The translations under genes and the position numbers were made by a program. From a virus: a stretch of 64,000 bases of DNA. The stretch is from IMG/VR virus record IMGVR_UViG_3300049893_002454, positions 61,546 to 125,545 of that record. One strand, written 5' to 3'. Positions 27,976-60,463 of this stretch are shown piece after piece. Position 1 is the stretch's first letter; each line of letters begins with the position of its first letter. Below the pieces are notes generated by a model, which was not told the origin of the DNA, searched no databases, and was given only the letters and a program-made list of their open reading frames with translations.

Positions 27976-28291
27976 AATTTTTCGCAGATCCCAACAAGAT
28001 CTTCCGGCAATTATCAACCAATTTTTCCTTAAATACCCTCCATCAGGAAATATAACTAAGACCACTAATGGCCCTATAGAAAAATATATGTGGACCACGA
28101 AGGATGGGTCAAGAGCGATCCTGGCTACTTCTAAAAATGGGACTAAGGTTATAAATTTTATATTAGATCAACAGAATGACTTTATTGACAAGTCCTTAGT
28201 CATGAAGTTAGTTTCTGTTGGTGGTAAAAATAAAGATATAGACATTAGAGGGGTATTTGCTAACTTATTGACTGAGGTGTTAGATGCTTAG
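27911..28291 (+). CDS. Hypothetical protein, 126 aa
   Basis: I recognise no family. The protein is basic with a mixed alpha/beta pattern. Starting at 27911 gives 126 residues with a weak AGGAT-like site; starting at the internal ATG at 27950 gives 113 residues (MTKTSSQQYEIF). The C-terminus overlaps the next start by eight bases, so the two genes are probably coupled. It is the first clear gene after the scaffold hairpin. A head assembly role is inference from position. Confidence 0.5.
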   Translation: MKRSWDILPSSIMTKTSSQQYEIFRRSQQDLPAIINQFFLKYPPSGNITKTTNGPIEKYMWTTKDGSRAILATSKNGTKVINFILDQQNDFIDKSLVMKLVSVGGKNKDIDIRGVFANLLTEVLDA

Positions 28292-28973
28292 AGTTATACA
28301 ATACTCTGGCAATGCTAGAGGTATTTCTTATCCGGTGCATCCAAATGATACATTTGAGCCTGGAATGATTGCACAATTTAAAGTGATAAATAACGATATA
28401 GTTCTGGGGGTCTCTGATGGACGAGCTCCATTTGGAATTATAGATGATATCCGAACTACGGCCTTTTCTGCTCCTGTCAATGATGAGCTGGTTGTCATTC
28501 CCGGTGTACCCGTATTTGACGGATATAAATGGGTTAATGGAATGGATACCTCTAAGGAACTATATAATGCTAATATAATTAGTTCCTCATTCGTAGCAGA
28601 TTATCCCGGCTTAAAGCTCAATCCAATTAATGGCATACTGAGAGCGCCTGCTGGTATAGAATTAAATTACTCCATTGATGGCTCCCCTACACCAAATGCC
28701 GTGCGTACGCGAGTCAAGTATGTGTATCACGTACCTAATATTGCTGGAGAAGATAGCACTATTGGTTCTGGAAGGGTGTCGGTGTGGTGGTCGCGTGGTA
28801 TATTTCAAACTGATCAGTATGAAATGACTGCATATAGTGTTAATGCCACCTTATTTGTTAGCTCACGCGGAAAGTTGACCACTGAACAAACTATGCCAGA
28901 GCAGCCAGGCGTGGGAATGTGCATTGTGCCACCTAGCGCACACAATCAATTTTTAGAATTTATTTGGCTGTGA
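28284..28973 (+). CDS. Probable virion structural protein, 229 aa
   Basis: The protein is beta-rich with many Gly, Pro and aromatic residues and few Lys or Glu runs, typical of a capsid or tail surface protein. It includes a PVHPNDTFEPGMIAQF segment (about 17-32), a FDGYKW turn and a C-terminal WWSRGIFQTDQYEM (about 168-181). It has a GAGG-type ribosome binding site. It lies between the scaffold and the capsid genes. I believe related proteins occur in other large phages as virion components, but I cannot name the family. Confidence 0.55.
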   Translation: MLRVIQYSGNARGISYPVHPNDTFEPGMIAQFKVINNDIVLGVSDGRAPFGIIDDIRTTAFSAPVNDELVVIPGVPVFDGYKWVNGMDTSKELYNANIISSSFVADYPGLKLNPINGILRAPAGIELNYSIDGSPTPNAVRTRVKYVYHVPNIAGEDSTIGSGRVSVWWSRGIFQTDQYEMTAYSVNATLFVSSRGKLTTEQTMPEQPGVGMCIVPPSAHNQFLEFIWL

Positions 28974-34960: not shown

Positions 34961-35638
34961 ATGGCTCTTTTCCCCATGCAGCCCGGCCTTCAACCGCTGG
35001 GTCATTTCGATTGTCTCGACACTAGCTTAACCAGCGTTACTGGTGGCGAAGTTATGTCACTCACTGCTGTTGCAACCGCCCTCTCTTCTACCGAGAAGGC
35101 TGCTGCAGACGCAACTGACGGCTATCTCTATGATGCCTCAGGCTCTATCACAAATCGCGCTGTTGCTTATTTAGCTGCGGCTGGCGACGTTAACCGCTTT
35201 CTTGCTCTAGCTGATGACGGTCTTGCTGGTTATGGCACCTCTTTCGGCGAATCTATCGGTGTACCGGTAGGCATGTCGACGACTGGAACCAATCTCGGCC
35301 CGCATACCGCCGCAGCTTCAGGTAAGGTAACCCTATGGGATAAGCCTGGTACCTACGAAGTTACAGTTTCTTCGTTGGCCTCAGACTTCGTCTCGACACT
35401 TACATCGGTAGGCCTAACCCCCGGTGCCTCACTTGGTTACAATGCCAGCTCTAAGCTAGCTCATACTGCCTGCTCAGGCGCAGTAGCCAACTCGGGCGTA
35501 GCTACATTTATTGAGTTCTCATCGAGCGGTTCACTCGTCACCACACCACCTAAGTTGGTTGGTACGACTTCCCTCTCGGTGCTCTACCCACGCATTGTAG
35601 TTTCATTCCATGCAGGACACGGGACCCGCGCTCTCTGA
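34961..35638 (+). CDS. Capsid decoration protein candidate
   Basis: The 225-residue protein is rich in Ala, Ser, Thr and Gly and beta-strands, has almost no Lys, and sits alone between a candidate promoter and a strong terminator directly upstream of the major capsid gene. This is where many phages encode a head decoration protein. Its codons are more C-ending than those of neighbouring genes, as in the capsid gene, which suggests high expression. Residues about 9-31 (GLQPLGHFDCLDTSLTSVTG then GEV) recur at the N-terminus of the fibre protein at 52744. The ATG has an AAGGAATAAATC site. Confidence 0.65.
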   Translation: MALFPMQPGLQPLGHFDCLDTSLTSVTGGEVMSLTAVATALSSTEKAAADATDGYLYDASGSITNRAVAYLAAAGDVNRFLALADDGLAGYGTSFGESIGVPVGMSTTGTNLGPHTAAASGKVTLWDKPGTYEVTVSSLASDFVSTLTSVGLTPGASLGYNASSKLAHTACSGAVANSGVATFIEFSSSGSLVTTPPKLVGTTSLSVLYPRIVVSFHAGHGTRAL

Positions 35639-35804: not shown

Positions 35805-37810
35805 ATGACTACAGGTCTTTTTAATGACAAGGGAGAGCTGAATGCTACATCAGTAGCCGATGCAGTCTCTAACCTTGCCAAGTATGCAAGTGTTATTCAA
35901 AATCATATGAGCTCAAATCAGTCTCTCGCCGGCCGCCCATCCCTCAATGAGCAGCAACGTGACGACATGGTTAAGCGCGCTCTTCAAACAACCGAAGGCA
36001 AGATTGCACTCGGCCAAGCCATGGCTTTGCCGATCCGACGCAACCTTGACTATCAAGGCGTTGCGAGAAAGGCTTTCGTCGTAGATCCTTTGCCAAACGG
36101 CGCCCTTGCCGTTTATGATCGCGACGTCGATGTGGCTGCAGTAGTTGTAGCCAGCAACGGTTCAGCTCCAGAATCACAAGTTCGTGGCGACCGCATAAAC
36201 GTTCCGGAATTTGAAATCGTTTCAAACCCGGTCGTTCGTATCCGTGAAGTCAAGATGCGTCGATTCAATGTGATCGACCGTGCTGTTCAAAAGGCACGCC
36301 AGGAGATCAACTGACCTTGGGTCTCCGTTAAATACCAGGTTATGCTGGAAATCCTCGAAGCTGTTTAGTACCGAATAATCGAGTAATAATCTAAACAGTA
36401 TGGGACAATCAGCAGGGGATAGTTAAATGAAAGTCGAAGATATCCTTTCTTATGAACAGCTTTATGAGCTCTATGTAGTAATTAAACTTTCTGATGCAGA
36501 AATTGCAGAGAAATTTGATTTAACAGTAGGGCAGGTTCACAGACTTAGAAATAAGTATTTGATTAAAGCTATTGAGCCATATGAACGCCATCCTAAGGCA
36601 AAATTAGATGATCAAGAGATTAGCCTAATTATAGGATTGCTTTTGGGCGACGGCCATATGCGTTTAAGAGAAGGCAGGAACACCTACCCGTCTCTTATTA
36701 TTGAGCAGTCAGCTAAGCATAGAGAATATTGCTTTTGGCTGTTTGAAGCACTTAAAGATTGGGTCCCGGATAGAAAAAGGTACCCGCGTCAGGCTCAGCA
36801 TAAGAATAAAGAAAAGATATATCACTCGTACACTTTTAGCACAGTTAGCCACCCAGCATTCTTTCAATTATATAATGCATTTTATAAGAATGGAAGAAAG
36901 ACCCTTGATATACAATATATAGCCAATCACTTTAATGTATTATCACTGGCTGTATGGTTGCAGGATGATGGCTCACTAACTGGAACTTGTAAAAGAAATA
37001 TTCTGTACACTAATTCATTTTCAAGAAGTGATATTAATGGCTTAAGGGATATTTTATTTGATAGGTTTGGGCTAAAAACTTGGATTTCTAAACGCACTAC
37101 AACTACCGAAATTAGTTATGAGATTGCGTTTGATAGAGAATCATCCAAGAAACTTTCAGACATGCTACGACACATCGTTGTACCAAGTATGTTGTACAAG
37201 CTAATCCCCTCAGAGACTACAAATGGTACTGCTACATAGTAGCAGAAGGTATAGTCCGACACTCCGAGCGATTGGAGATTAACAGAGCTGCCAAGCTCAA
37301 GAAGATGCTAACGCATTTGCTGCGCTGGATTTCGCAGCCGACGCCTCCCTTAGTGGTGAAAACACCGCTCAGGACATCGTCGATGGTGGTTTAACCCGTC
37401 GCGATCTCGTTGAGATCTCGACCCAGGTTGATCGCTGGGATCTGGCTACCTCGAAGTTCTTCATGAACATCTTCGAGTTTAACGATATGCGTCTGTGGTC
37501 CTCACAGAACGGCACTGGCGTTGCCGATGTAGATCCGGTTACCCACCGTGAAATCCTCCAAACCGGTCTTTATGGCCGTATCTTTGGAGCGGACATTATC
37601 GTCAGCAAGATGGTTACCCCAGGTACCGTATTTGCTTGCGCTGATGCCGAATTCGTCGGTGTTATGCCAGTACGACAGGACATCGAAATCCTCCCAGCGG
37701 ACGAACCAAAGCGTCTAATGTTAGGATGGGTGGTCTCGGAAATTATCGGCATAGGCGTTGCAAACCCACGCGGTGTTGCAGTAGGCCGTAAGAGCGTAAC
37801 TGTAGGCTGA
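35805..37810 (+). CDS. Major capsid protein, split by a group I intron
   Basis: The gene is join(35805..36307, 37291..37810). The spliced product is 340 residues and forms the icosahedral shell; an HK97 fold is expected. Exon 1 encodes residues 1-167 plus two bases of codon 168, and exon 2 the rest, so the junction reads QEI-QAQEDANAFAALDFAA. Without splicing the frame stops at 36314. Typical capsid features in exon 2 are TGLYGRIFGADIIVSKMVTP, EFVGVMPVRQDIEILPAD and a C-terminal NPRGVAVGRKSV. GGAG lies before the ATG. Codons are unusually C-rich. Fold assignment rests on position, size and sequence style. Confidence 0.85.
36308..37290 (+). ncRNA. Group I intron in the capsid gene
   Basis: The 983-nt self-splicing intron can be placed by pairing. 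P1: exon GGAGAT (36302-36307) pairs with GTCTCC (36321-36326), leaving the expected U-G wobble at the 5' splice site. P10: CTTGG (36316-36320) pairs with the first exon 2 bases CCAAG (37291-37295). The intron ends in G at 37290. Core elements include the helix CTGTTTAG/CTAAACAG (36361-36368 / 36391-36398), AATCAGCAGGGG near 36407-36418 and TATAGTCCGACAC near 37250, close to the usual P7 region. Splicing restores a continuous capsid frame. It hosts a LAGLIDADG gene. Confidence 0.92.
36427..37239 (+). CDS. LAGLIDADG homing endonuclease in the intron
   Basis: The 270-residue protein cuts intronless capsid alleles and so spreads the intron. Two LAGLIDADG motifs are visible: IIGLLLGDGHM (about residues 74-84) and LAVWLQDDGSL (about 176-186); each ends with the acidic residue that binds catalytic metal. 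The N-terminal 55 residues contain a helix-turn-helix (SDAEIAEKFDLTVGQVHRL). GGGG upstream of the ATG within the intron supports translation. It sits within the intron loop, before the conserved 3' core. The protein is full length and the motifs are intact, so the element may be active. Confidence 0.93.
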   Translation: MKVEDILSYEQLYELYVVIKLSDAEIAEKFDLTVGQVHRLRNKYLIKAIEPYERHPKAKLDDQEISLIIGLLLGDGHMRLREGRNTYPSLIIEQSAKHREYCFWLFEALKDWVPDRKRYPRQAQHKNKEKIYHSYTFSTVSHPAFFQLYNAFYKNGRKTLDIQYIANHFNVLSLAVWLQDDGSLTGTCKRNILYTNSFSRSDINGLRDILFDRFGLKTWISKRTTTTEISYEIAFDRESSKKLSDMLRHIVVPSMLYKLIPSETTNGTAT

Positions 37811-37877: not shown

Positions 37878-37930
37878 TAGAAATCACATGGTTTTAAAAT
37901 TTCTCGTCCAAGCCATTGTTACAAGCTCAT

Positions 37931-38995
37931 ATGATCATCATCATGATCGGCATCTACCGAATTTATAACTTAGTCTCCAAACATTCATATATAGGATCAT
38001 CGAAAAATATTTCTTCTCGATGGGATTCTCATAGGCGGGAGCTGAATAGAGGAGTCCATCATTCGAAATATCTACAGGCAGCATGGAATAAATATGGCGA
38101 AGGGAGCTTTGTATTTGAGATCGTAGAGCTATGTGATCAGGACGATTTACGAGATAGAGAGCAGTCGATGATCAATCTGATTAAACCCGAATATAACATC
38201 TCTATGATTGTAGATCTTCCCAATCCTCCTCCGAATAGGCCAATTATCCGTACAAATATACTTACTGGCGAAACTGTTATCTTTGCAACACGCGACCTTG
38301 CCGCTATGGATGGTGACTTCAATGAAGGCAGCATTACCTCATGTTGCCATGGTCATGCATCTAGTCATCGTGGATATTTTTGGAAGTTTGCTGACGGATC
38401 AACTCCAGAATTTAGACCTGTCAATGGCGTATTTAATGTATTGCGTATTGAAATAGATGGATACTCTGTTCAGAAATTTCCCTCTATCAGGAATGCAGAG
38501 ATAAACACTCCTGGTTCCACATATAAGGGCATACATGCCTGTTGCAAAAAGCAGCTAAAGAGTCATGCTGGTTATCGTTGGTGCTTCGATGGGTATCAAC
38601 AAGTTTATGCTAGATCGCCTAGGCGTAAAAGGATATGTAATAGGGCAGTACGTAGAGTTTCAATTGACTCTAATGAAATTTATATCTACAGCAGAGTTTC
38701 TGACGTTAAGAGTGATGGTTATTCTCTTGGCAATGTTATATCTTGCTGTAATGGACATAGAAAGTCGCATAAGAGATGTATTTGGGAGTGGGATGACCAG
38801 ACTACTCCACGCGCATATGAGTCAGAAGAGAAAGGTAAGGGATCTGTTATTGGCACCTCTGTTCATACTGGAGAGATTCGTATTTATCCCAGTATATCTG
38901 CAACTTCTGTAGACGGATTTAGTCCGGGCAAAGTCTCAGCATGCTGTCTTGGAAGAAGAAAAACTCATGGAGGCTACAGATGGCAGAGACAGTAG
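37931..38995 (+). CDS. GIY-YIG homing endonuclease with four NUMOD-like repeats
   Basis: The N-terminus has the GIY-YIG nuclease: IGIYRIYN then KHSYIGSS, then RWDSHRRELN, with a Glu downstream in REQSMINLI-KPEYN. The C-terminal two-thirds holds four repeats ending CC-x(6-10)-SH-x-GY-W: SITSCCHGHASSHRGYFW, GIHACCKKQLKSHAGYRW, NVISCCNGHRKSHKRCIW and KVSACCLGRRKTHGGYRW. These repeats probably read DNA. ATG at 37931 or 37943 are both possible; neither has a strong ribosome binding site. It lies directly after the capsid terminator, so it seems to be a free-standing mobile gene. It overlaps the next gene by 16 bases. Confidence 0.88.
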   Translation: MIIIMIGIYRIYNLVSKHSYIGSSKNISSRWDSHRRELNRGVHHSKYLQAAWNKYGEGSFVFEIVELCDQDDLRDREQSMINLIKPEYNISMIVDLPNPPPNRPIIRTNILTGETVIFATRDLAAMDGDFNEGSITSCCHGHASSHRGYFWKFADGSTPEFRPVNGVFNVLRIEIDGYSVQKFPSIRNAEINTPGSTYKGIHACCKKQLKSHAGYRWCFDGYQQVYARSPRRKRICNRAVRRVSIDSNEIYIYSRVSDVKSDGYSLGNVISCCNGHRKSHKRCIWEWDDQTTPRAYESEEKGKGSVIGTSVHTGEIRIYPSISATSVDGFSPGKVSACCLGRRKTHGGYRWQRQ

Positions 38996-40161
38996 TATGT
39001 CCGATATGCAATAGCAATCATAAATATATTGCGAAACATCTGCAACTAGTACACAGTGATGTATATCGTCAGAATGAAATGCTGTGTATAGAACTCTATA
39101 ATTCAGGTTTAACCGTAGCAGAGATTTCTAAACATCCGGATATTATCTTCAATAATAAAATGACTATAAGTAGGATTCTGCGCCGTTTTATTGACGTAGA
39201 TACTATAGAGCGAGCGCGTCGCCTTCGTGCAGCTACGTCGCTAAGTCGTGCTGGTAGAAAGAAGAAAGCTTTAGCTAATGCGAAGGCGATAGCTTCGAGT
39301 TCTAATAGACATAATGTACTTAATGCTATATCGGATTTAGTTACTCTGGACTCATCTCACATTAGAGAGGTTCAAGAATTTGCAGCTGAGTCTGGATTAG
39401 ATTTTAATCCACGCAATGGTATAATCTCAAAAGATAATAAGATAATACTAATCCTTCCAATCTCAGATATATTCTCAACATACTCTTTTCTTGCCCGTGA
39501 CTTTTATCAACAAGCCATTAGTACCTCAAATCCTCTAATATTATTCTTAGATGAATTGCGATCAAAGAAGGTCCTAATTAGCTCTATGATTGATGCTAGA
39601 ATAGGTAGCGAGAATTTAATCCGCTGCTCGGCCAGGCAGTGTCTAGTTCGACAACTATCATCACAAGAGTCAAGAGCATTTTTTGACAATAACCATATAT
39701 CAGGTCACGTTACCGGCAGCATGTATGTTGGTCTAGAATTTAATAATGAAATTATAGCCGCTATATCTATGCGCAGGCCATTCACTAATCGGTATAGCGG
39801 ATATCTAGAAATTGCTAGATTTGCAGTAAAATCAGGATATATTGTTAGGGGCGCCTTCAGTAAATTACTAAGTAATATCATTAATCAAATAGGTGCGTCA
39901 TATACTCATATATTATCGTACTGTGATTTGCGCTATGGTACTGGAAATGTATATCGTGTGAATGGATTTACTGAAATTGGTCGCACTAAGCCAGATTACT
40001 GCTATACGGACGGTATAAGACGATACCATAGATTTAAGTATCGTGCTGCAGACGGTCGTACTGAACGCGAGATTGCTGAAGCGGCTGGATTGCATAGGTT
40101 ATATGGGGTAGGGTCGATTATATACGAACTGGAGATTCCCGCAGGCAGGAGCCGGACCTAA
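38980..40161 (+). CDS. Zinc-finger protein with Vsr/GNAT-associated C-terminal region
   Basis: I chose ATG 38980 because GGAGG precedes it. The 393-residue protein begins with CPICxxxxxYIAKHLQLVH, a C2H2-like finger, then a helix-turn-helix-like part (TVAEISKHP). Residues about 195-350 (IRCSARQCLVRQL, FFDNNHISGH, EIARFAVKSGYIVRGAFSKL, YCDLRYGTGN-VYRVNGF) match the region that follows Vsr-like nuclease domains in phage homing proteins and has a GNAT-like look. The part just before it (LDELRSKKVLISSMIDARIG) may be a degenerate nuclease core. It is probably a mobile DNA-targeting protein; activity is uncertain. Confidence 0.65.
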   Translation: MAETVVCPICNSNHKYIAKHLQLVHSDVYRQNEMLCIELYNSGLTVAEISKHPDIIFNNKMTISRILRRFIDVDTIERARRLRAATSLSRAGRKKKALANAKAIASSSNRHNVLNAISDLVTLDSSHIREVQEFAAESGLDFNPRNGIISKDNKIILILPISDIFSTYSFLARDFYQQAISTSNPLILFLDELRSKKVLISSMIDARIGSENLIRCSARQCLVRQLSSQESRAFFDNNHISGHVTGSMYVGLEFNNEIIAAISMRRPFTNRYSGYLEIARFAVKSGYIVRGAFSKLLSNIINQIGASYTHILSYCDLRYGTGNVYRVNGFTEIGRTKPDYCYTDGIRRYHRFKYRAADGRTEREIAEAAGLHRLYGVGSIIYELEIPAGRSRT

Positions 40162-51215: not shown

Positions 51216-52034
51216 ATGGATAATCTTAAATTAGTCCTGTCCGGCTCAGGAACTCCATACCCAGTGCATGTTGGTGCTATAATTTGTTTAGCGGAGCATG
51301 GACTGGTATTTAATGAGGTAGTTGGCACGAGCGGGGGCGCTATCGTAGCTTCGCTTCTAGCTTCAGGTTATAAACCAAATTATGAACTAATAGACTTAAT
51401 GAAGAAGACTATTCCAATTAAAAATAAGTTATATGATCCTTCCATATGGTCTCTCTTATCAAAATGGGGATTTATAAAGGGTGATAAGATTGAGCGTATG
51501 CTAGATAAATATCTGGTTAAAAAGCTAAAGGACACTAAGATCCCTCTGCATATCGTAACATGCAATATTGATCAAAGAAAGATGAGAGTATTCTCCACAG
51601 CAACAGATCCAAATATGGATATCTCACTTGCAGTAAGAGCTAGCATGTCAATTCCTGGTGTATTCGTGCCAGTGGTGATAGATGGTGAGCGATATGTGGA
51701 TGGTGGACTAGCTGGTAATTTTCTTATAGATCATTTTAAGGCAGATGATATGGTAATAGGCATTAGAATTAGATCAGTGCATGACAAACATAATAAAATT
51801 TCTAATGCATTTGATTACACAAGTGCTGTTGTAGATACGATGCTTGAAGCTATGGTAGATGAGAGATTAGAGGATGCTAAGAATACTCATGTTATTACAA
51901 TAAATACTAAACATAATAGTTTAAATCTAGTTATGACAGAAGCAGATGTGTTAGATATGATTTCTGAAGGGTATAATGCTACTACATTGTGGCTGAGGAA
52001 GAATAAGAGAATATTTCCCCCGCGATCTCAGTGA
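51216..52034 (+). CDS. Patatin-like phospholipase
   Basis: The 272-residue protein has the features of a patatin lipid hydrolase. An oxyanion-hole-like SGSGTPYPVHVGAI (residues about 9-22) precedes the nucleophile motif GTSGG (about 37-41). The catalytic Asp is in VDGGLAGN (about 161-168). The enzyme would cut acyl chains from phospholipids, using a Ser-Asp dyad. No signal peptide is seen. Its place among fibre genes suggests it may be a virion enzyme acting on the host membrane, or a lysis aid. The last codons run into the terminator at 52023-52053. Confidence 0.9.
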   Translation: MDNLKLVLSGSGTPYPVHVGAIICLAEHGLVFNEVVGTSGGAIVASLLASGYKPNYELIDLMKKTIPIKNKLYDPSIWSLLSKWGFIKGDKIERMLDKYLVKKLKDTKIPLHIVTCNIDQRKMRVFSTATDPNMDISLAVRASMSIPGVFVPVVIDGERYVDGGLAGNFLIDHFKADDMVIGIRIRSVHDKHNKISNAFDYTSAVVDTMLEAMVDERLEDAKNTHVITINTKHNSLNLVMTEADVLDMISEGYNATTLWLRKNKRIFPPRSQ

Positions 52035-52433: not shown

Positions 52434-52521
52434 CACCAAACATTTATCATAATAATATTAAAAATCTCGAATAAAACCACAACTGTCTTAACGAATGTAA
52501 TTATACTCAGAGGTGCCGAGG

Positions 52522-52740
52522 ATGAGTGTTGACGAACAGATTTTAAATGAGTTGAAGCAAATAAATATAACACTATCAAAACTAGTATATATACTAGATC
52601 ACAAATCATCTAATACTCAGACACATGGTCAACCTACAAAAGATCAATTTATGATAGATATAGAAGAAAGAATAAGAAAAGCCAGAAGCGAAGCAGAGGC
52701 AAAGATGAATAAGCTCAAAGCTGGCACCCTAGGATTGTAA
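52522..52740 (+). CDS. Small helical protein, 72 aa
   Basis: The ATG at 52522 follows AGAGGTG at a usable distance; an in-frame GTG at 52513 is a weaker choice. The protein is helical: VDEQILNELKQINITLSKLV at the N-terminus, then a charged C-terminal helix (IEERIRKARSEAEAKMNKLK). It could form a small coiled-coil trimer that joins the fibre encoded three bases downstream to its base. No family is recognised. Confidence 0.55.
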   Translation: MSVDEQILNELKQINITLSKLVYILDHKSSNTQTHGQPTKDQFMIDIEERIRKARSEAEAKMNKLKAGTLGL

Positions 52741-52743
52741 GCA

Positions 52744-54540
52744 ATGATTAAACCGTTTCAGTCAGGCCTGGTGCCACTTGGTCATTTTGATTTTGATGAT
52801 ACTCAACTAAGCCTATTGAAAGGCGGAGAAGTAGTAGTTCTTGATAAAAAAGAAGTATCTGTTGTTGAAAAAACAGCAACGGACGTTTATGTTGATACTG
52901 ACAGGACCGGATTTAGATTAGCTAATGAAGCCGACATAGGCCCATTTTTCTTTACAGATCCAGGGACAAATGGTGGAGGATTTTCTAATATAGCGGCAGA
53001 AAGAACATCTCTCTTCTCCACTGGTCATGGTGTCATTACATACGAGCAAGCTAGCAGTAAAGCTACAGTATGGGGGACCGAAGGGTTCTATACCATCAGT
53101 ATAGACGCAATAGATCCTACAATAGACGACACGCTACTTCCAAATACAGAGTTATATGTAAGTGAAGATGGGCAACTAACTATAACTCCAAGTTCTAGCG
53201 GAAGAATTGTAGGTTACTTTATTGAGTATAGAAAAAAAAGCGTAGTAGCGAATAGGCTATACACAATGCCTGGCACTGAGATAAATACAGACGTTGTCGT
53301 GGTTTATAAATTAAATGCAGATGGATATAATGCTAACAGTGCTGGTACCACTATAGACCCAGATTCACTTACATTAGGTCAGCCTACAGATGGATACTTC
53401 TCAGACGGATATTTTAATTTCACATCAACAACGAGGATTGCCGATGCAGTTGATGAGATTTCAGAGCATATTCTAAGTATATCCGGCGGTGCAAATACAG
53501 CATTATCAAATTTAGGTCCAACATCGATAAATCAAGATCTATTGCCAGATACAGACGCAACTCACTTATTAGGGTCTCCAACACTAAGATGGAAAGATGG
53601 ATACTTTGGGCCGACATCACTACATATTGTAGGAACAGCAGCTGAAGTAGGAATTGAGACTGATTGGAGATTGGGCTTAAATAGTAGCGGGTCATTTACT
53701 GTATCGAATAATTCAGATTCACTTATCATAACACCAGACGGCTATGTTGGTATATCAAAAATTCCAACAGCACATTTAGACATATCAGGATTTATAAAGA
53801 CCGATTCAGGAATTATACTGTCTGACAACTCAGTAATATCAGATATGGAATCTATACTGCCATCACAAAGTGGCAATGCCGGAAACTTTCTTTATACAGA
53901 TGGAAGTACGACTTCTTGGCGAGGAATCCGCGCATCAGATATATTGGCCCAGTTTGCAATATCCACATTTGCAGTGACATCTGCCACTAGAGAGGTGGGA
54001 GAGTCGGTTAGTCCAGCTAGCTTCACGGCTACCTACAACAGGACGCCGGCCTCAGCTATACTGACAGATAATAATGGCTCAAGCGCTGTAGATGTAACAT
54101 CAACTCCAACAGCATTTAACTCTGCCGGACCATTCGTCAAAACAACAAATAATAGCTCTGTAATATTTACACTTACAGCAAATGATGGAGTAGATCCAAA
54201 CTCAGTGCTAACTTCAACTATGAGATGGAGACCTCGCGTGTACTATGGAATAGGGGTAGATGGCATTTCTACCGAAGCTGGCATAGAAGGACTGCCCAGT
54301 TACCAGTTGCTTGCAACTAAAGCACTTACATTTACGGTTACTGCCGGAGCAACCGACCACATATACTATGCCGCTCCAAGCTCATACGGAACGCCTACAT
54401 TCACAGTTGGTGGATTTTCTGGTGGATTTACTTTAGTCGGAACTATATCCGTGACGAATATATATAGCGTAACCCAAGACTATGTATTATATAAGTCTAC
54501 AAATGCAAACTTGGGTAATACAACAGTGGTGGTGACTTGA
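52744..54540 (+). CDS. Fibre protein with decoration-protein-like N-terminus
   Basis: The 598-residue protein has an N-terminus (FQSGLVPLGHFDFDDTQLSL then GGEVVVL) that matches residues about 9-31 of the decoration candidate at 34961. Residues about 1-145 appear related, including a WGTEGFYTISI segment comparable to WDKPGTYEVTV. The rest is fibre-like: SNLGPTSINQDLLPDTDATH, then LGSPTLRWKDGYFGP, a module also found in the next two large fibres, then a beta-rich end with KALTFTVTAGATDHIYYAAP. Five DGY occur. It may attach a fibre to the capsid. Its stop overlaps the next ATG. Confidence 0.7.
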   Translation: MIKPFQSGLVPLGHFDFDDTQLSLLKGGEVVVLDKKEVSVVEKTATDVYVDTDRTGFRLANEADIGPFFFTDPGTNGGGFSNIAAERTSLFSTGHGVITYEQASSKATVWGTEGFYTISIDAIDPTIDDTLLPNTELYVSEDGQLTITPSSSGRIVGYFIEYRKKSVVANRLYTMPGTEINTDVVVVYKLNADGYNANSAGTTIDPDSLTLGQPTDGYFSDGYFNFTSTTRIADAVDEISEHILSISGGANTALSNLGPTSINQDLLPDTDATHLLGSPTLRWKDGYFGPTSLHIVGTAAEVGIETDWRLGLNSSGSFTVSNNSDSLIITPDGYVGISKIPTAHLDISGFIKTDSGIILSDNSVISDMESILPSQSGNAGNFLYTDGSTTSWRGIRASDILAQFAISTFAVTSATREVGESVSPASFTATYNRTPASAILTDNNGSSAVDVTSTPTAFNSAGPFVKTTNNSSVIFTLTANDGVDPNSVLTSTMRWRPRVYYGIGVDGISTEAGIEGLPSYQLLATKALTFTVTAGATDHIYYAAPSSYGTPTFTVGGFSGGFTLVGTISVTNIYSVTQDYVLYKSTNANLGNTTVVVT

Positions 54541-56317: not shown

Positions 56318-59300
56318 ATGGCTGGCACAATATACCCATTGGGCATAGATGGATATGCCCAATTACCACTCATCTATGATCTAATAAGTCCAGTGCGCGC
56401 GGATGATATAAATCGCGTTCGCACTGCAGTAGTAGCTGTAGAGACTGAGCTTGGTATAAATCCTAGCAGCACACATGGAACTGTGCGCTCTCGTTTAGAT
56501 GCCCTTGAAAGTGGTATAGGCGGAGCAGGTGGGGCCTATTTAATTACTGATCCGGGTGATTTACTCACGCGCAATAGCACAGACTTAGCTAAACTAGCTG
56601 TGGGAGCAGACGGCTATCTTCTTATCGCAGATTCTACTCAAGATACGGGCCTAAGATGGGGCACTGCTACAGGAGAAACACCAGACTTTATAAGTGCTCA
56701 CATAGAGAGCCCTACGAATAAAGAATACTTCCTCGTCCTCTACTCCCCATTTGCTGGATTCATAGAATCCATAACAACACAATCAAGTTCTGGCACATGT
56801 AGACTAGATGGCTATATTGACGGCACAGTGCTAGGAGGAACATACAATTCAGTCTCATCAGTCGAAGAGACACAATTACATGCCACAGATAATAGTTTTA
56901 TTATTGGACAGACAATATCAATAATAATATCACAGAACTCTACGTGTACTGATCTAAGATTTACAATTAAGTTTATTCGAGACAACTATGTAGGCAATTC
57001 TGGCGAAGCAAATACAGGTGCAAATATTGGGGCCGGAGGCGTTGGACTATTTAAACAAAAGTCTGACCACATACTTCAATTTCGTAATATAAATGCAGGT
57101 TCATCGAAGATATCTGTTGCACTTGATTCTCCAAATAACGAAGTAGATATAGATGTCGTAGAGGCGCAACTTACCCTTAATAATATTGGAGGGACACTAT
57201 CAATTGCAAAGGGAGGCACTGGACAGACTAGCGCATCAAGTGCATTCAACTCTCTCAGTCCAACTACTACCAAAGGAGACCTGGTAGTTAGAGATGCTTC
57301 TACAAATACACGCCTAGCTATAGGCACAGATGGGTATGTGCTTACAGCAGACTCTGCCGAAAGTACTGGTATAAAGTGGGCCCCGCAAACAGGGTCTGGG
57401 GGAGGAGCTCCTGCAAATGCGCAATATGTCACACTAGTAGCCGACGGTACATTGACACAAGAACGTATATTAACTGGAACAGCCGGGCAGATTGATATTA
57501 CTGACGGCGGTGCCGGAGCAGCGGTCACATTAAGCATGGCCGCTACTGGAGTAACTCCAGGCGTATATTCGCAACCGCAATTAACTATAGATACACAGGG
57601 TCGAATTACCGCTGCTGCTGACGGTTATGCAGCTCCAGTTAATGCACAATATTTAACATTAGCTACAAACGCCACATTGACACAAGAAAGAGTTCTTGTG
57701 CCAACCGGAGGAGAGCTGACACTGACAGATGGTGGCGCAGGAGGCAATGCAACTATAGCACTCGCTACTACCGGAGTTAGCCCAAATACTTATGCCTTTG
57801 CTACAATAAGCGTTGATTCTAAAGGCAGAATTACATCAGCATCAGCAAATAGCGCAGCTAATTCAGCACTATCAAATCTTACCACCACAAGCATAAATAC
57901 ATCGCTACTCCCAGCTATAACAGACGGTTATGATATTGGCTCTCCGACACTTAGATGGCAAGATCTACATCTGACACGTACTATACAAACAGTCCGTAGC
58001 TCAGGAGTAACGGAACATAGTGGCTCAGTATATTCAAATATAGCATCAGAAGCACATGCATTCTCACACTACAGAGCGGAGGGAACAGAAGCACTTCCGG
58101 CAGAAGTGTCTGTAGGGGATATTTTAGGAAGACATAATTTCTACGGTTTTGATGGCGCAACCTTTAATATTGGTGCACAAATTGAATCTATTGCAGACGC
58201 AGTGTGGAGTGGTTCTGACTTTGGCACTACGCTAGATATAAAAACTGTTTCAGCAGGTAGTACTACACTATCAAGTAGAATAGCCATTGATTCTTCGGGT
58301 ATGGTTGGTATAGGTACAACCTCACCTGTCTATAATTTACATGTTGCTGGAGATGGATACTTCTCTGGCTTTGCACGCGTAAGCTACACGGCAGCATCAC
58401 CGGCCACAGCAGGTGCGGGGGCCATACGTTGGAGTGGCACGGAAATTGAGTACAGCGATGGCTCTATATGGGTATCTACTGCCACGCCATCAAATGTCGC
58501 AAATAGATATCTTTCAAATCTATTAGTTACATCAATAAATACAGATCTTATTCCAGCAGAAGATGATGCATACAGCCTTGGCTCTCCTACATACAGATGG
58601 AAGGACGGATACTTCGGTCCATCGTCGCTACACCTGATAGCACTTCCGTCGGAGACAGACGGTTTTATAAACTCTCATTGGGCATTAGAAGTGCTAGATG
58701 ATGGTTATCTAGCGTTTAATAACAATGTTGAAATTAAAGCTAGAATTTCTAGAGATGGCTATGTTATTCCAAGCGCAGGATTTATTTTTCCTGACGGAAC
58801 CAAGATGGTCACGGCTGTACCACAGGTTTTCGCTGCTGGAACCTCCGGTGCAATACAATTTAATAATAATTCTAGTTTTAGCGCAGACAGTACAGCTCTG
58901 TACTGGAATATATCAGAAGATCAGCTAGGACTTGGTACAAATACTACAAATGCTAGACTTACAGTTGATGGGTATATCTCGCTCAGCGAGCAATCAGAGT
59001 CTCCTCCTCCAACGTCATCATATGGAAAGATCTACGTTAAACAGTCTGACTCGCGAATATATTATGGGGATGATTCCGGCCAAGAACACTATTTAACACA
59101 TGATGGCTACGAAGTAATTGCATGGGCAGCATCAATTGCGCTAAATCTAAGTCCGTCATTGCCATTACAGCGCACTATTACGTTAGATGGTGTGGCTACA
59201 GCTACAACAATCAGCTCTACAATAAATAGAGGAGTAGGTAGAAGTCTGGTACTGCGCATGCTTGCCGGAGCAACAACACACACATTATCATGGCCGCCTA

Positions 59301-60463
59301 GTTGGAACTGGTTAGGAGATGCATCTCCATCTTCACTGACGGCAGGAAACGTAGCCATATTGACCATCATATCATATGGTGTGGCAGAATCAGATATAGT
59401 TGCTTCATGGGAATATGAAGGAGCATCTACAGCACTTACAGGGTCAGGCTCATCAGGAGCGGTAGCATTCTGGAATGGAGCAACATCATTAGCACAAGAT
59501 GCTGCAAGTTTCTTCTGGGACGATAGCAATAATAGATTATCAGTCGGAACAAACACTCCATCAACCGCAGTACATGTGTTAACTAATGCCAATGACGATG
59601 GTATTTGGGCGCAAAATGCTACAGACGGATATTCGGTAGGACTGCATGCCAGAGCTACTAGTAGCGGAGGTTTGCGCGGCATAGGTATCAGAGCACATGG
59701 GCCAACCACTTCAGGAACCTTTCTTGGGTCAACTACTAACAATAACGTCACTATTGCAGCATACGGAGCTGAAACAACAGCAATAAAAGTCGGCACAGAT
59801 CTCGATGCCATACCTATTATATTTGGAAATAGGTCGTCTGCAAATGGGGAGAGCATTGGGCAAGAGCGTTTGCGTATAGCTGCAGATGGTAGCGTAGTAG
59901 TAAATGAACAGGGATATGAACATGTAAATTTCCGTGTTGATGGATACAACAATGCAAATAGACTGGTTGTCGCAGCTTCATCAGGCAGAGTCGGAATAGG
60001 CACCGATAGTCCCAATGAAATTCTAACTGTCACAGGCAAGATTTCTATAGTATACACCACATCTCCTACTGCTACAGATGGATACGGAAAGTTATATCCA
60101 AAAGCATCTGACGGATATCTGTACTATATGGATGATGATGGTAATGAATATAATCTCATTACCGCCAGTTTAGTCGGGGTAAAAACTCCGATCACTAACG
60201 TATCTACAAATCATACCATCACGTTATTAAACGGCACCATTATTGTCGATGCTTCAGTAGGCCCAGTAACAATAACACTCCCAACAGTGTTATCTGCGAA
60301 TGAATATATATTTAGGGTCAAGAAGAAAGATGTAAGCTCAAATGCTGTTATTATAGATGCCGCTGGTGCAGAAACTATAGATGGGGCATCCACATATTCA
60401 CTATACACACAGTATGAAACTATTACTGTACAGTCTGATGGAACACAATGGTGGATTATCTAG
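56318..60463 (+). CDS. Giant tail fibre, 1381 aa
   Basis: The protein is a mosaic of fibre modules. It includes DINRVRTAVVAVETELGINP near residue 30, SPTTTKGDLVVRDASTNTRL then TDGYVLTADSAESTGIKW, two copies of a TSIN..L.P....LGSP..RW segment (near residues 530 and 735), GYGKLYPKASDGYLYYMDDD and a C-terminal beta domain ending in a TLPTVLSANEYIFRVKKKDV stretch and YETITVQSDGTQWWII. Such ends are common in phage fibres. It holds about 16 DGY tripeptides. No chaperone or enzyme motif is visible. It is probably a receptor-binding fibre. Confidence 0.75.
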   Translation: MAGTIYPLGIDGYAQLPLIYDLISPVRADDINRVRTAVVAVETELGINPSSTHGTVRSRLDALESGIGGAGGAYLITDPGDLLTRNSTDLAKLAVGADGYLLIADSTQDTGLRWGTATGETPDFISAHIESPTNKEYFLVLYSPFAGFIESITTQSSSGTCRLDGYIDGTVLGGTYNSVSSVEETQLHATDNSFIIGQTISIIISQNSTCTDLRFTIKFIRDNYVGNSGEANTGANIGAGGVGLFKQKSDHILQFRNINAGSSKISVALDSPNNEVDIDVVEAQLTLNNIGGTLSIAKGGTGQTSASSAFNSLSPTTTKGDLVVRDASTNTRLAIGTDGYVLTADSAESTGIKWAPQTGSGGGAPANAQYVTLVADGTLTQERILTGTAGQIDITDGGAGAAVTLSMAATGVTPGVYSQPQLTIDTQGRITAAADGYAAPVNAQYLTLATNATLTQERVLVPTGGELTLTDGGAGGNATIALATTGVSPNTYAFATISVDSKGRITSASANSAANSALSNLTTTSINTSLLPAITDGYDIGSPTLRWQDLHLTRTIQTVRSSGVTEHSGSVYSNIASEAHAFSHYRAEGTEALPAEVSVGDILGRHNFYGFDGATFNIGAQIESIADAVWSGSDFGTTLDIKTVSAGSTTLSSRIAIDSSGMVGIGTTSPVYNLHVAGDGYFSGFARVSYTAASPATAGAGAIRWSGTEIEYSDGSIWVSTATPSNVANRYLSNLLVTSINTDLIPAEDDAYSLGSPTYRWKDGYFGPSSLHLIALPSETDGFINSHWALEVLDDGYLAFNNNVEIKARISRDGYVIPSAGFIFPDGTKMVTAVPQVFAAGTSGAIQFNNNSSFSADSTALYWNISEDQLGLGTNTTNARLTVDGYISLSEQSESPPPTSSYGKIYVKQSDSRIYYGDDSGQEHYLTHDGYEVIAWAASIALNLSPSLPLQRTITLDGVATATTISSTINRGVGRSLVLRMLAGATTHTLSWPPSWNWLGDASPSSLTAGNVAILTIISYGVAESDIVASWEYEGASTALTGSGSSGAVAFWNGATSLAQDAASFFWDDSNNRLSVGTNTPSTAVHVLTNANDDGIWAQNATDGYSVGLHARATSSGGLRGIGIRAHGPTTSGTFLGSTTNNNVTIAAYGAETTAIKVGTDLDAIPIIFGNRSSANGESIGQERLRIAADGSVVVNEQGYEHVNFRVDGYNNANRLVVAASSGRVGIGTDSPNEILTVTGKISIVYTTSPTATDGYGKLYPKASDGYLYYMDDDGNEYNLITASLVGVKTPITNVSTNHTITLLNGTIIVDASVGPVTITLPTVLSANEYIFRVKKKDVSSNAVIIDAAGAETIDGASTYSLYTQYETITVQSDGTQWWII

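Follow-up and report, generated by a model that had tools for sequence, protein, structure and literature searches.

Decoration proteins of the beta-tulip type occupy three-fold or quasi-three-fold sites of the capsid as trimers and grip it mainly by an N-terminal arm (PMC7602432). A trimeric base of the same type is found in gp8.5 of phi29, where it binds the capsid at quasi-three-fold sites and then carries a fibre outward (PMC6542822, PMC7602432), and the capsid stabilisation protein of HFTV1 has been tied by DALI to gp8.5, TW1 and Pam3 (PMC12494034). Fibres on the head have also been described for phages 7-7-1 and phiCrAss001. In the portions of these reports available to us, the 7-7-1 fibres reach for the flagellum and their density protrudes from pentamers, the phiCrAss001 fibres are anchored in hexon pockets by short N-terminal segments, and a decoration-domain base is described for neither (PMC12796354, PMC10172136).

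In uncultivated phages, fibres of the tail are not normally told from those of the head. We analysed a window of 64,000 nucleotides of viral DNA (the whole stretch considered here), in which the N-terminus of one fibre resembles a decoration protein encoded directly before the capsid gene. Like 7-7-1 and phiCrAss001, this phage would carry fibres on its head.

Likeness of the fibre N-terminus to the decoration protein

The fibre gene and its parts are the following:

52744-54540, + strand: fibre open reading frame, 598 aa, starting with ATG
52744..53313, + strand: N-terminal beta-tulip-like decoration domain, residues 1-190, proposed capsid anchor (BLASTP, AlphaFold model, structural matches)
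53314..53919, + strand: fibre shaft, residues about 191-392, conserved with the relative G001 (alignment to G001 and to a 1381-aa fibre)
53920..54537, + strand: variable fibre tip, residues about 393-598, unrelated to the tip of the G001 homologue (alignment)

The N-terminus of the fibre bears GLVPLGHFDFDDTQL...GGEV and the ORF at 34961-35638 bears GLQPLGHFDCLDTSL...GGEV; both elements that the sequence-only reading had called shared are thus carried by both ORFs. That reading had put the similarity at about 145 residues, and it turned out to be somewhat longer, about 185. BLASTP aligned fibre residues 4-162 with the 34961 product (E 6e-12, 31% identity), and a genome-level tblastn stretched the similarity to residues 3-188 (E about 1e-10). 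The local score of the pair was 142, 18 standard deviations above the shuffles (n=2,000), whose maximum was 71, and the fibre domain scored 158.8 bits against the profile of the 34961 family. Across 48 aligned domain sequences, W, K, G and D residues were invariant, and G001 carries the same gene pair of fibre and decoration protein. An identity of only about 31% might arise by chance or from low complexity when two structural proteins are both beta-rich and rich in Gly and Ser, but the E-value, the shuffles, the invariant residues, the second genome and the common fold described below rule this out, leaving it a negligible probability. Judged by sequence and modelled structure, the first 190 or so residues of the fibre share descent with the phage's own capsid-decoration protein family. 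Neither protein had a relevant sequence match in Pfam, PHROGs or the PDB; weak matches to hydrogenase and ABC-transporter ATPase chains in the sequence searches were set aside as chance.

The nature of the partner protein follows from these neighbouring features:

34961..35638, + strand: stand-alone decoration (cement) protein, 225 aa, paralogue of the fibre N-terminal domain (directly before the capsid gene; fold)
35805..36314, + strand: major capsid protein, first coding part (PHROG 2522 major head protein, E 3.6e-31)
37463..37810, + strand: major capsid protein, last coding part (PHROG 2522, E 1.7e-26)

An intact homologue of the capsid protein (L004) is 51% identical to gp27, the capsid protein of Bacillus phage G. 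In phage G, gp26 is encoded just before gp27, is annotated as capsid decoration and is present in the solved capsid (6wkk). Of about 80 related viral contigs, fetched by capsid or domain similarity, most likewise have a gene of the 34961 family immediately before the capsid gene; in a few the decoration gene was several kb off, in some there were two tandem copies, and in one the capsid match lay on the opposite strand. The family was present in all 42 whole related records searched, and also in a giant-phage-like contig of a Chitinophagales MAG. The decoration profile did not match gp26 significantly (hhalign, E 0.097), and the link between the two therefore rests on structure and gene position. 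The 34961 product, partner of the fibre domain, is a capsid-decoration protein.

Several features of this region were seen in passing. An insert (36314-37463) that holds a LAGLIDADG endonuclease ORF (Pfam LAGLIDADG_2) interrupts the capsid gene, and beyond it, at 37916-40161, lie an ORF of GIY-YIG type and one with a weak likeness to Mom; G001 has its capsid gene in three pieces and G002 has it intact. Tandem decoration gene pairs precede the capsid gene in two other phages (L023, 6676-8296; L083, 3317-4863). Upstream of the capsid gene, at 28284-28973, a conserved 229-aa protein has the stretch SGKVTVW...G.LT in common with the decoration family (hhalign E 1e-5, probability 82%), and by this sequence it is possibly a third, distant member of the decoration fold.

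Predicted fold of the fibre domain

The fibre domain and the stand-alone decoration protein were modelled separately with AlphaFold2 (alignments of 48 and 46 sequences, pLDDT 78 and 75, respectively), with confidence lowest around a glycine-rich loop. The strand order of the two models was identical and both matched the same solved decoration proteins, so that the different folds which would have spoken against a shared domain were not seen. These proteins are the trimeric beta-tulip capsid-stabilising proteins; gp8.5 was matched less well.

In a Foldseek search of the PDB with the fibre domain, the E-values were weak (best 0.16), and the top 21 matches were all capsid-shell chains. Under VIA-align, the Z scores against capsid-stabilising proteins were 11.1 (BB1), 10.9 (FCWL1), 10.8 (Sf11), 10.6 (HFTV1), 10.4 (T1), 10.1 (TW1), 9.5 (Pam3) and 9.4 (XM1). 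A C-terminal fragment of the phi29 tail appendage gp12 followed at 7.9 and the phi29 head-fibre base gp8.5 at 6.6; after another gp8.5 entry at 5.9, the score fell to 3.2 for the best unrelated chain. The assignment of the fibre domain to the beta-tulip fold thus comes from structural matching, with Z up to 11.1 as against at most 3.2 for unrelated chains. The list for the stand-alone protein was nearly identical (best Z 9.5). Because the gp12 C-terminus also matches, the fold by itself is not head-specific.

The likeness to TW1 gp56, HFTV1 CSP, T1, FCWL1, Pam3 and BB1 covers about 115-130 residues of the predicted fold (Z 9.5-11.1), at a sequence identity of 9-14%, and these proteins, unlike ours, have no fibre attached. 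In a library of viral structures, the best match of the fibre domain model was phage G gp26 (E 6.6e-4, probability 1.00), a kinship seen by structure with no detectable sequence link. Like the 34961 gene, the gp26 gene stands before that of a related capsid protein; gp26, however, is a stand-alone protein of 165 aa, with no fibre.

In layout, the fibre resembles gp8.5. Both have an N-terminal beta-tulip base and then a fibre, as judged from the domain order in the sequence and the fold match. The differences are that gp8.5 has no sequence similarity to our fibre (no match in phage records or Pfam), that its spike is an alpha-helical supercoil whereas the shaft here is of a type common with a sibling fibre, and that the base here is a paralogue of the same phage's separate decoration protein. 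To our knowledge, phi29 has no separate decoration protein. The fibre would work in the way of the gp8.5 head fibre, but its sequence places it outside that family. Most likely, the head-fibre design known from phi29 has here been assembled from different parts, in a phage related to the giant Bacillus phage G.

Divergence of the domain and place of attachment

Of the residues conserved in the decoration family, the fibre domain keeps 11 of 16 in the N-terminal arm region and 11 of 17 in the core. Conservation within the family peaks in the glycine-rich loop (decoration residues 83-119), where the sampled decoration proteins have at least 11 of 13 conserved residues; the fibre has 4 of the 13. 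Either this loop makes trimer contacts specific to decoration proteins, or the fibre binds a different site, and if the loop touches the capsid, the binding site of the fibre may differ. In the tree, the fibre domain sits on a branch of 2.74 changes per site, outside the clade of the phage's own decoration protein. So long a branch means that the domain is no recent copy, a recent duplication of the phage's own decoration gene being ruled out by the tree, and that the join between domain and fibre is old or fast-evolving.

The fibre gene, paralogous to the decoration gene, is not upstream of the capsid gene; it lies 17 kb downstream among other fibre genes. At the sequence level, the domain occurs in the 42 related records only as capsid-adjacent or stand-alone copies and in two fibre fusions. 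These fusions belong to two genomes, G000 and G001, and no others were found in the viral contigs, the 42 related records, the genome contigs or the phage G, LucasX and C48C1 records; among 50,697 phage records, the fibre domain had no sequence match. Its descent places the fibre anchor in the capsid-adjacent decoration family, from which it departs by the lost loop and the position of its gene.

These departures could be explained if a decoration-type domain had lost capsid binding and been re-used to form the trimeric base of a fibre on the tail, baseplate or neck. The lost loop, the long branch and the place of the gene within a cluster of other fibre genes all suit such a history, and a domain of related fold does occur in the phi29 tail appendage gp12. 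In gp12, however, the matching domain is the C-terminal end (residues 692-854) and not an anchor, whereas the domain of our fibre is N-terminal, where phage fibres attach, and has kept most of the arm residues. A sibling fibre of 1381 aa has the same shaft on another N-terminus, as expected for two anchoring places, and no tail fibre with the domain was present in the 50,697 phage records. The concern that the domain might be a general trimer base of tail fibres, already voiced in the sequence-only reading, thus has one instance at the level of fold (gp12 C-terminus, Z 7.9) and none at that of sequence, where only decoration copies and the two fusions were seen in the 42 records and none in the 50,697. 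On balance, we regard re-use on the tail, baseplate or neck as unlikely. Another explanation would confine the fibre to a special place on the capsid, the portal-proximal vertex or the collar, in the manner of whiskers. A diverged domain could recognise a distinct capsid environment, and phiCrAss001 is described as using a pair of head fibres to serve two hexon environments (PMC10172136); we nevertheless consider such a special site very improbable here.

We think it probable, from sequence, modelled fold and analogy with known systems, that the product of the gene is a head (capsid) fibre, in which the decoration domain would be the capsid anchor and the fibre the arm. The earlier suggestion of a possible head fibre with a decoration-like base thereby gains support from homology, the common fold and the gp26 match, and attachment to the head is what we would deduce from them. 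The retention of the arm, the grip used by beta-tulip proteins and the precedent of gp8.5 together lead us to infer that fibre trimers would sit at or near decoration sites. In the arrangement that we infer, for trimeric state, site and copy number as for adhesion, three chains would form a decoration-type trimer, as in gpD, gp87 and gp8.5, and its N-terminal arms would rest on a three-fold or quasi-three-fold capsid site, with fibre trimers replacing ordinary decoration trimers on the head or standing beside them. Phage fibres are usually trimers too, and a decoration trimer could therefore pass into a trimeric shaft with no change of symmetry. The trimer would run outward into this shaft and an exchangeable tip, and the tip may bind the cell surface and keep the particle near its host before the tail engages.

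A broader proposal, towards which we lean only slightly, is that in this phage-G-like phage a copy of the capsid cement became a socket into which exchangeable fibre modules of the ordinary kind fit, so that shafts and tips of one kind would serve both on the head and on other fibres and the head would have host-recognition arms of its own. This would be a plausible route to the origin of head fibres, in which a decoration domain was joined to a fibre shaft while the original decoration protein stayed in the genome. It would also provide a simple sequence rule, an N-terminal decoration domain on a fibre, by which head fibres might be predicted in uncultivated phages, and head-borne arms, if true, would alter what fibre genes can be taken to say about host range.

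Shaft, tip and neighbouring fibre genes

Two further genes of the cluster bear on the fibre:

52513..52740, + strand: small ORF of 75 aa immediately before the fibre gene (60% identity in G001)
56318..60463, + strand: 1381-aa fibre with an unrelated N-terminus and the shaft module in common (sequence comparison)

Within the shaft, residues 247-343 align with residues 725-820 of the 1381-aa fibre at 47% identity. The G001 homologue is 69% identical over fibre residues 1-393 and unrelated beyond; its tip is instead like the C-terminal 87 residues of the 1381-aa fibre (46%). Because the N-terminus of the 1381-aa fibre differs, the shaft and tip modules sit on two different N-terminal anchors. The fibre part also had weak matches in other phages, to structural proteins and to proteins annotated as tail fibres. 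The 75-aa ORF may encode a partner in fibre assembly.

Read by eye, the ORF list of the rest of the record, a 125-kb fragment, yielded no sheath, tube or baseplate gene, and tail fibres were thus not picked out. A patatin-like phospholipase gene (51216-52034) lies within the fibre cluster and is conserved in G001. In the proteins of the cluster (40400-64000), 48 copies of the tripeptide DGY were counted as against 1.8 expected, whereas its number is close to or under the expected one in the early part of the window and elsewhere in the genome; it is also found in 31 of 46 decoration proteins. Many different codons encode it, which argues for selection at the level of the protein. Outside the window, the first 20 kb of the record (L149) contain a long run of genes resembling glycosyltransferases and sugar epimerases, whose products, going by this resemblance, could modify virion proteins.
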